Positions 15,008-17,262 of a stretch of DNA of 64,000 nt are shown here, piece after piece. Each line of letters begins with the position of its first letter. The stretch's first letter is position 1. The DNA lies in assembly GCA_013177825.1 (NCBI GenBank), contig JABLXX010000002.1, forward strand, positions 248,001 through 312,000, read 5' to 3'. The notes under the pieces are model-generated. The model had not been told where the DNA came from. It ran no database searches and saw nothing but the letters and a program-made list of their open reading frames with translations. Source of the DNA: Syntrophaceae bacterium (GTDB taxonomy: Bacteria > Desulfobacterota > Syntrophia > Syntrophales > PHBD01). Made by a program: the position numbers and the translations under genes.

Positions 15008-16003
15008 TCAGGTCAGGCAGACCTGGGAAAGGCGCGCCACGTTTTCGTCCTCCCCCATGGCGATGAGCTTGTCTCCCCGTTCGATCCGGTAGGTCGCCAG
15101 GGGATTGAAGATCATCCGTCCGGATTCCTTCTTCACCGCCACGATGATGAGGCCGTACTGCAGGCGGATCTCCGATTCCTCCAGCGTTTTGCCGATGATG
15201 GGGGAGCCGTCGCAGACGGTCATCTCCTCCATGCGCAGCTCCAGGCTGGCCCGGCTGGTGGTGATCTCGATGAAGTCGAGCATCGCGGGCCGGAGAATGG
15301 CCATGGACATCCTCATTCCCCCGAATGTGTAGGGGGACATGACCCGGTTGGCCCCGGCCCGGAGAAGCCGGTGCTCCGAGACCTCGTCCTCGGAGCGGGA
15401 GAGGATCCAGATGTCCGGGTTGAGCTCCTTGGCGGTCAGGATTACGTAAAGATTCTCGGCGTCCGAGGGAAGGACGCAGACGATCCCCTTGGCCCGTTTT
15501 ACCCCCGCCTCGACAAGGCACTTGTCGTGGGTGGCGTCTCCCTTGCAGTAGACGAAGCCCTCTTCGGCAATCCGCTCGATGACCTCCGTGTTGCTGTCGA
15601 TCACCACAAAGGGGACTTTTTCCGTCTGCAGTTCCTTGCCGATGAGATGCCCGATCCGGCCGCAGCCGCAGATGATGTAGTGATTGCTCATTTTTTCGAT
15701 CATTTTTTCCAGCCTTCCCCTCCCGAGAACGACCCGCAGCCTTCCTTCCACCATGTTCTGGGCCAGGAGGCCCACCGTGTAGAACATGGTTCCCACACCG
15801 AACAGAATCAGGATGATGGTGAACAGACGCCCCTGCAGGGTCCGGGGCATGAAATCGCCATAGCCTACCGTGGAGATCGTAACGATTGTCGCATAGAAAG
15901 AGTCCAGGGGAGCCCAGCCCTCGGTGAGATTGTAGCCGATCGTGCCCGCGACGATGAGGAAAACCAGACCCGTGGCCGCAATGCTGAGCTTGTTGGTGAA
16001 CAT
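15008..16003 (-). CDS. TrkA-N/RCK-gated potassium channel protein
   Basis: 331-residue protein (352 if the GTG at 16063 is used; 335 from the ATG at 16015). Two transmembrane helices flank a pore loop with the K+ selectivity filter TVGYGD. A Rossmann RCK (TrkA-N) domain follows with the nucleotide-binding loop GCGRIG, then a TrkA-C domain near the end (ERGDKLIAMGEDENV). It is a ligand-gated K+ channel of the MthK/Kch class. The start is uncertain because the purine-rich GGGAGGGG sits awkwardly with respect to all candidates. It follows the binding-protein/pseudo-deaminase gene on the same strand within about 80 bp, so the two are probably cotranscribed. Confidence 0.9.
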   Translation of the reverse strand: MFTNKLSIAATGLVFLIVAGTIGYNLTEGWAPLDSFYATIVTISTVGYGDFMPRTLQGRLFTIILILFGVGTMFYTVGLLAQNMVEGRLRVVLGRGRLEKMIEKMSNHYIICGCGRIGHLIGKELQTEKVPFVVIDSNTEVIERIAEEGFVYCKGDATHDKCLVEAGVKRAKGIVCVLPSDAENLYVILTAKELNPDIWILSRSEDEVSEHRLLRAGANRVMSPYTFGGMRMSMAILRPAMLDFIEITTSRASLELRMEEMTVCDGSPIIGKTLEESEIRLQYGLIIVAVKKESGRMIFNPLATYRIERGDKLIAMGEDENVARLSQVCLT

Positions 16004-16080
16004 CGTCCTGTGCATCCCCTCCCGAAAGGTCCGCCGTGTAGACAAGAATGCCGCCGGTGTCAAAGAATCCGGGACATCTC

Positions 16081-17262
16081 CTACTGCAGCGGGAAGACGT
16101 AAGGCAGAAGTTCCGATACCGTCACCGTCCGGTATCCGCCGCTCCCGTCCTCCACCAGGACCAGGGTTTCCCCGCCGAACTCATAGAGCAGCTGCCGTTC
16201 CTCTGCCGTCGGGGCGGCCATTTTGTCGCCCGGCTGGAGGTTGACCGCCGCCCGGAACCGGGTCTCTCCGGCGGCCACGGCATTGTGGACCGCCACCGAC
16301 AGGGCCGTCTCCGTATAGGGGAAAATGCCGTTTTCGATGTTGCAGCCGGTGAAGATATTTCCCGAGGCCATCAGAACCGCCGCCCCCACGGGGAAGTTCG
16401 AGTAGGGCGCGTAGGCGAAGCGGGAGGCCTGCCGGGCGCTGTCCTTGAGAGCCTGGATCTCGGCGGCGGTGAGCTCCTCCACGAACCAGCGGCGGTAGAT
16501 CTTTTCGTAGGTGCCGTCCGTACGGATCCGGAAGAGGCCTTCGTTGAGCCAGGAGAGGAGTTCCGTGTCGGTCTTCCGGACGGCGAAATAGAGGGAGGAG
16601 ACCATCAGCGGTGTGCTCAGGGGGTGCAGGTTCTTGAGGCCGTGTTTCTTCATGTTGAAATAGGCCGTTTTTTCCGAGCCGACGAAGGCCTCCGCCACTC
16701 CCTTCGAGAGGGCCATAAGGGCATTGGCCTCCGTATCGAAAAGAACGGTCCGGATTCCCTTCTGTTCCGCCAGGCCGACGTAGAGGGAGCCCTTCTGCGT
16801 GGCGGCTGTGCGATCCTTGAGGTCGGCGGGAATCCGGTAGGGCTTTCCTGTCGTCGTGAAGAGACTGACCTTGAACTCCGTCAGGGGCAGGTTCGGAAAG
16901 ACATATCGCCCCTTGCGCTCCTCCGTCTTCTTCATCCCCGAGGTCAGGTGTACTTCTCCGGAGGCTAGTCTCTTCTGCGCCTCATCCCACTGCATGGGCA
17001 GGAGGACCAGCTTTGCGTCCCGTCCCTGGAGGGCGGCCCTCAGGATGTCGATGTCGAATCCCGTCGGCTGGCCCTTTTCGAGGTAGGTATAAGGCGGATA
17101 GTCCTCGTCGAAGACATAGATGACGTCCCGGGGAGCCGCCCAGGCGGTGGAAATCCCGGCCAGGAAAATCCAGAGAACCATCAGGGGTGCCGCAATCAGC
17201 AGGGTGGCGGAGGGAACGGTGCAGCGGATGAGGAAGGGTGATCGCCGGAGCGGATATGCCAT
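16081..17262 (-). CDS. Periplasmic solute-binding protein fused to a degenerate cytidine-deaminase domain
   Basis: 393 residues. Residues 1-43 are an extended basic N-terminus and signal or anchor helix ending AWAAP. Residues about 45-262 are a family 3 solute-binding domain (YPPYTYLEKGQPTGFDIDIL; FAVRKTDTELLSWLNEGL; RTDGTYEKIYRRWF). Residues about 268-393 match cytidine deaminase: APYSNFPVGAAVL and TGCNIEN with the ribose-contact Asn308 and Glu310. The catalytic C-A-E triplet is replaced by T-A-L (319-321), and PCxxC by P-T-A-E-E (351-355), so all three Zn cysteines and the proton-shuttle Glu are absent. It is therefore predicted to bind but not deaminate. GAAGGAGAAGACCC precedes the ATG. 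It is upstream of the K+ channel gene. What it binds is unknown. Confidence 0.82.
   Translation of the reverse strand: MAYPLRRSPFLIRCTVPSATLLIAAPLMVLWIFLAGISTAWAAPRDVIYVFDEDYPPYTYLEKGQPTGFDIDILRAALQGRDAKLVLLPMQWDEAQKRLASGEVHLTSGMKKTEERKGRYVFPNLPLTEFKVSLFTTTGKPYRIPADLKDRTAATQKGSLYVGLAEQKGIRTVLFDTEANALMALSKGVAEAFVGSEKTAYFNMKKHGLKNLHPLSTPLMVSSLYFAVRKTDTELLSWLNEGLFRIRTDGTYEKIYRRWFVEELTAAEIQALKDSARQASRFAYAPYSNFPVGAAVLMASGNIFTGCNIENGIFPYTETALSVAVHNAVAAGETRFRAAVNLQPGDKMAAPTAEERQLLYEFGGETLVLVEDGSGGYRTVTVSELLPYVFPLQ

Follow-up and report, generated by a model that had tools for sequence, protein, structure and literature searches.

A gene in the window (the whole 64,000-nucleotide stretch analyzed here) encodes a family 3 solute-binding domain fused to a cytidine deaminase (CDA) domain in which all three zinc ligands and the catalytic glutamate are replaced. 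Roughly 60 genomes share this zinc-less fusion; they belong to several lineages of bacteria and to a single archaeal one. Its deaminase domain is a maintained pseudoenzyme under purifying selection stronger than that on the binding domain. Such a broken enzyme has almost certainly taken on a new function. The features of the gene and of its downstream neighbor are collected in Table 1.

Table 1. Features of the fusion gene and the adjoining channel gene in the window
Feature	Positions	Strand	Details and basis
SBP_bac_3/pseudo-cytidine-deaminase fusion gene	16081..17262	-	393 aa, ATG start, stop included; ORF and translation, Pfam, NCBIfam
Putative N-terminal signal sequence, residues ~1-43 (AWA before APRD)	17134..17262	-	Sequence reading; helix 18-40 in model
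Family 3 solute-binding domain, residues 44-261	16480..17133	-	Pfam SBP_bac_3, E 8e-28; GlnP SBD1 match, Z 24.9
Predicted pseudo-cytidine-deaminase domain, residues 262-393	16084..16479	-	NCBIfam, E 5e-27; model pLDDT 93; Z ~20 to tetrameric CDAs
T319-A320-L321, replacing the C-A-E zinc/catalytic triplet	16300..16308	-	B. subtilis Cdd alignment; counts over 53 fusions
P351-T-A-E-E355, replacing P-C-x-x-C	16198..16212	-	B. subtilis Cdd alignment; counts over 53 fusions
N308-I-E310-N311, retained ribose-contact motif	16330..16341	-	Fusion counts; residue roles from PMC9897663, PMC6686228
Two-helix K+ channel with TrkA_N/TrkA_C (RCK) domains	15008..16063	-	Pfam; same strand, ~17 bases downstream of the fusion gene

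Pfam places SBP_bac_3 at residues 49 to 261 (97 bits against a curated cut-off of 26.4; E 8e-28) and two deaminase families behind it, dCMP_cyt_deam_2 (residues 268 to 334, E 1e-7) and dCMP_cyt_deam_1 (residues 270 to 336, E 3e-6), both above their curated cut-offs. The NCBIfam cytidine deaminase model NF004064 spans residues 268 to 391 (94.7 bits against a cut-off of 74; E 5e-27). At the N terminus, a hydrophobic segment that is helical from residue 18 to residue 40 in the structural model ends in AWA followed by APRD. This junction is a likely signal peptidase I site, and the fusion protein is likely exported. Both the signal sequence and the family 3 domain had been proposed in an earlier sequence-only reading; our own reading of the N terminus supports the former, and the latter is borne out by the Pfam match and by a match to the Venus-flytrap fold. 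That reading had placed the gene correctly but left its strand unstated: it is encoded on the minus strand, the frame on the plus strand containing two stops.

The C-terminal domain of the window protein is 34% identical to B. subtilis Cdd and retains AYAPYSNFPVGAA and NIEN. In the alignment, C53-A-E55 of Cdd becomes T319-A-L321, and P-C86-x-x-C89 becomes P351-T352-A-E-E355. We compared 53 distinct full-length fusions from the fetched loci with 33 canonical CDAs. The zinc ligands Cys53, Cys86, and Cys89 and the catalytic Glu55 are each present in all 33 canonical proteins and in none of the 53 fusions. In their place, Ser, Thr, or Gly stands at position 53 in 52 of 53 fusions; position 86 has Ser, Thr, Ala, or Gly (50 fusions) and position 89 an acid, Asp or Glu (51), while the catalytic position 55 carries Leu, Ile, Val, or Met (48). 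The CDA alignment and the loss of the three cysteines and the glutamate, first read from the window protein alone, are thus seen here again, and the loss extends to the homologues: no fusion among the 53 keeps C-A-E or PCxxC. Loss of the zinc ligands and Glu55 predicts that the fusion would not deaminate cytidine. NF004064, an equivalog model named "cytidine deaminase," scores the zinc-less domain above its cut-off, and automatic annotation that follows this label may credit the fusions with a role in pyrimidine salvage that they should lack.

An AlphaFold2 model of the full-length fusion, built from eight full-length fusions, has an overall pLDDT of 86. Its N-terminal part matches Venus-flytrap binding proteins with Z scores up to 24.9 (4la9, GlnP SBD1). 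The full-length fold search returned solute-binding proteins alone, one domain filling the list, so the C-terminal domain was modeled separately from an alignment mixing fusions and canonical CDAs. This second model has a pLDDT of 93, and its best matches among solved structures are tetrameric-class CDAs, with Z scores of 17 to 21 (4f3w: Z 20.6, rmsd 1.8 over 118 residues); Foldseek agrees. Residues 268 to 391 are accordingly predicted to adopt a cytidine deaminase fold, as had been proposed from the primary sequence, and one of the tetrameric class.

To place the retained residues, we converted published residue numbers to B. subtilis Cdd by alignment. The substrate-binding equivalents are F24, N42, E44, A54, and F125, and the tetramer-contact equivalents are Y21, S22, R90, Q91, E95, and L121 (PMC6686228); N42 and E44 contact the ribose (PMC9897663). 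The window protein keeps N42 (N308), E44 (E310), F24 (F290), and F125. Across the 53 fusions, E44 and A54 are each kept in 51 and N42 in 36 (the others have mostly Thr or Ser), while the base-contacting F24 and F125 are kept in 4 and 11, respectively. The losses follow lineage. Of the 11 fusions on the window side (n = 5) and the archaeal side (n = 6), 8 carry Phe or Tyr at position 24 and 10 carry F125. By contrast, those on the Desulfovibrionaceae side (n = 42) have mostly lost both positions and retain mainly the ribose-contacting Glu44. The claim that the nucleoside-contact residues remain is therefore correct for the window protein with its clade, where, as in the archaeal clade, the set is mostly retained, but not for the family as a whole: in 42 of 53 fusions, positions 24 and 125 are largely lost. 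Because of these losses, use of the pocket cannot be identical across the family. Among the tetramer contacts, Tyr21 is kept in 47 of 53 fusions, Gln91 in 46, Glu95 in 50, and L121 in 39; Ser22 (31/53) and Arg90 (29/53) are less well kept. The helix residues Ala54, Ala58, and Ala62, which form a small-residue face, are kept in 51, 53, and 48 fusions.

In the binding domain, R116 is kept in all 53 fusions and aligns to a position that we take, from known solute-binding protein structures, to be the carboxylate-binding Arg of amino-acid-binding proteins. In family 3 proteins that bind amino acids, an Asp holds the alpha-amino group. At the aligned position, 196, this Asp is absent from 53 of 53 fusions (Pro, Ala, Gly, Ser, Leu, Thr, or Gln is found there); the adjacent position 197 is Asp or Glu in 27 of 53. 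This domain probably binds a carboxylate, though not clearly one that is an amino acid. Elsewhere in the window genome are three more SBP_bac_3 genes and four more PF00383 genes. One of the latter, at locus L004 (G000:C1:1015653-1015958), encodes a 174-aa CDA-like protein with intact CAE and PCxxC motifs but with NID replacing NxE, and its substrate is possibly something other than cytidine.

In a tree of deaminase domains, all 53 fusion domains fall on one side of a branch separating them from the 33 canonical CDAs, with an SH-aLRT of 99 obtained by a quick method on a short alignment from which the zinc-site columns were left out. On this tree the zinc-less deaminase domains are one clade. 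Between the window protein and its sister species, the one pair within the genus on which these values rest, dN/dS is 0.049 for the deaminase domain, 0.117 for the binding domain, and ~0.9 for the signal region, the last value being compatible with a signal region. The low dN/dS, the regular replacements, and the single clade make it very unlikely that the deaminase domain is a relic.

The fusion of SBP_bac_3 with a deaminase domain recurs in Desulfobacterota and in Methanotrichales, answering the question of recurrence that the sequence-only reading had raised; all 9 fusions scanned match SBP_bac_3 (PF00497). A second species of the window's genus carries it, with a C-terminal domain 96% identical, as do three further genomes of the window's order and a one-contig 3.7-Mb Desulfobacterota genome. 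When one genome was scanned for each species, named loci came from HGW-Deltaproteobacteria-19, Syntrophaceae UBA6252 and fen_1087, a Lac Pavin metagenome-assembled genome (MAG), and a Methanosaeta MAG, and also from three gut MAGs whose fusions group with those of Desulfovibrionaceae. Counted within samples, of which the bacterial phylum-wide draw was thin, the fusion is present in 47 of 348 Desulfovibrionia genomes (the Desulfovibrionaceae family sample comprised 199 genomes) and in 7 of 50 genomes of the archaeal order Methanotrichales. Among 393 genomes drawn from the archaeal phylum, no fusion was found outside Methanotrichales, both matches lying within that order. Matches in plasmids are all below 60% identity. 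The copy in the Syntrophaceae fen_1087 MAG (L019), one of the three further genomes of the window's order, has one in-frame stop, at ~847-849, inside the binding domain, which may be an assembly error or the mark of a dying copy.

Recurrence in the second species of the genus, in the one-contig genome, and in archaea excludes an assembly artifact. Contamination was likewise rejected as the origin of the archaeal copy: the same contig has a SepSecS-family gene and PyrI, and six further Methanotrichales genomes are positive. Several other candidates proved to be different proteins. Matches in viral contigs were CDAs only, and the two loci that were translated (L014 and L015) keep CAE and PCxxC. 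The three weakest Desulfovibrionaceae matches (L163-L165) are ordinary CDAs, and the N-terminal extension of an 809-aa frame in L150 resembles noncoding read-through. The PF00383 frames of ~390 aa in most Methanotrichales belong, where read, to another family with an intact zinc site, an F420-ligase/CDA fusion. In these loci (L117-L129), where read, F420-0:gamma-glutamyl ligase is joined to a cytidine deaminase whose CAE and PCxxC motifs are intact; L124 is an example, and there Pfam recognizes the two domains.

The surroundings of the gene vary with lineage. In the sister species, a K+ channel also lies directly downstream of the fusion, at 87% identity to that of the window; none of the other fusion loci tested yielded an RCK-domain K+ channel. 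GluR0 joins a solute-binding-protein-type domain to a K+ channel, which it gates. We dropped the idea of the channel as a general partner on this model, as it adjoins the fusion in the window's genus only; there it is a candidate operon partner, and a functional link is conceivable by analogy. Several Desulfovibrionaceae genomes have a same-strand glucokinase gene directly downstream and, upstream, a CinA-family gene in the opposite orientation (for example, L026 6426-7508 and L027 4606-5205), which looks like ordinary synteny. A conserved operon was rejected on the basis of this variation. Motif patterns for an ABC ATPase and a histidine kinase gave no match in 42 fusion-locus neighborhoods, up to ~6 kb per side, and the pattern for an ABC permease gave one match across the 42, apparently in a noncoding frame. 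With no partner common to all lineages, a linked partner is seemingly not part of the system.

Our preferred reading, which we put at slightly less than an even chance, is that the fusion is an exported, transporter-independent binding protein of two modules, probably tetrameric, in which the CDA core would be a scaffold whose ligand-binding pocket has been repurposed. An intracellular tetrameric CDA would have been fused once behind an exported binding domain. A three-thiolate zinc site may be a liability outside the cytosol, and it would have been exchanged for a fixed nonmetal site consisting of Ser/Thr, a small residue, and Asp/Glu, and the catalytic Glu for a hydrophobic residue. The Venus-flytrap domain would bind a small ligand, presumably of the carboxylate type, and the pseudo-CDA domain most likely serves to hold four copies of the protein together as a tetramer. 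The pseudo-CDA pocket, which keeps the ribose-contacting Glu, may still bind a ligand; this Glu and the new acid are near-invariant, suggesting that the pocket is kept in use. In the window's clade and the archaeal clade, the ligand could be a nucleoside. The ligand state might be read by an unlinked partner, or the ligand might simply be held.

Retention of Tyr21, Gln91, and Glu95 in fusions of a family whose Desulfovibrionaceae members lose the base contacts, together with the small-residue helix face, is also what one would see if the pseudo-CDA domain bound nothing and acted purely as an oligomerization scaffold, displaying four binding domains as a tetramer for avidity or for a multivalent partner. 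Most nucleoside contacts are no better conserved than these tetramer contacts, which makes such a scaffold as serious a reading as nucleoside sensing. A pure scaffold would have no need of a conserved pocket, however, and Glu44 and the acidic replacement of Cys89 are each found in 51 of 53 fusions; we regard it as possible but unlikely. An exported two-input sensor of nucleosides or pyrimidines, taking an amino-acid-like ligand in the solute-binding domain and a nucleoside in the pseudo-CDA pocket, would fit the tetrameric CDA fold and the Syntrophales-side and Methanotrichales-side fusions, where F/Y24, N42, E44, and F125 are mostly all present. It fits poorly with the 42 of 53 fusions that have mostly lost positions 24 and 125, with the disappearance of the base-acting Glu55 and the zinc-bound water from all fusions, and with the motif scan of 42 neighborhoods, which found no signaling gene nearby. 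We consider this sensor rather doubtful. A two-input tetrameric sensor whose zinc-less CDA domain binds nucleosides or ribosyl compounds outside the cytosol, while the solute-binding domain reports a second ligand, is conceivable, if unlikely.

The regularity of the replacements, with Asp or Glu at one ligand position in 51 of 53 fusions, could alternatively mark a new catalytic activity, in which Ser/Thr (C53), a small residue (C86), and Asp/Glu (C89) together make up another kind of active site that possibly hydrolyzes a substrate or binds a metal. Yet 48 of 53 fusions have a hydrophobic residue (Leu, Ile, Val, or Met) where canonical CDAs have the proton-shuttling Glu55. Glu44 and Glu95, the remaining acids present in at least 90% of fusions, are likewise conserved in canonical CDAs, making new catalysis improbable. 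That the deaminase half is instead a decaying remnant, drifting since the fusion, might be suggested by the lost catalytic residues and the in-frame stop in the fen_1087 copy, but the dN/dS of 0.049, the regular replacements, and 53 full-length open copies across two domains of life leave this reading with hardly any credibility.

Inactive members of the deaminase superfamily are known as intracellular partners of active deaminase domains. The fusion shares with tetrameric CDAs (B. subtilis Cdd and human CDA; NF004064/PF00383) the fold of the whole domain and the AYAPYS..VGAA, NxEN, RQ...E, and LLP motifs; unlike them, it has no zinc ligand or catalytic Glu in 53 of 53 cases, is predicted to be exported, and is joined to a binding domain. 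With family 3 solute-binding proteins (PF00497; ArtJ, GlnH, and the GlnP SBDs) it shares the Venus-flytrap fold, export, and the carboxylate-binding Arg, but it lacks the aligned alpha-amino Asp, has no linked ABC transporter that we found, and carries an extra C-terminal domain. In dimeric E. coli-type CDAs, a "broken active site" part completes the active site of a working CDA within the same enzyme (PMC6686228). That part likewise has a CDA fold without a working zinc site, kept for a supporting role, whereas the fusion protein contains no working CDA domain. In MltF, muropeptide binding to an N-terminal family 3 domain switches a C-terminal lytic transglycosylase domain (PMC10746161). Both proteins place an enzyme-type domain C-terminal to an exported binding domain; in MltF this is an active peptidoglycan enzyme, whereas the fusion has a CDA fold without catalytic residues and no lytic transglycosylase domain. 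We found no earlier description of the SBP_bac_3 plus pseudo-CDA architecture in the open-licence literature. The parts are all of known kinds (CDA fold, SBP_bac_3, pseudoenzyme, fusion of a solute-binding protein to an enzyme), and the combination appears new.

The fusion would offer a testable case of an intracellular thiolate-zinc enzyme altered for life outside the cytosol. The known uses of the CDA fold would be extended by an exported, inactive form that is joined to a binding protein, is under tighter constraint than that partner domain, and occurs in both Desulfobacterota and methanogenic archaea. Should the two-input sensor prove correct, a pseudoenzyme sensor would be common to syntrophic and sulfate-reducing bacteria and to methanogenic archaea.
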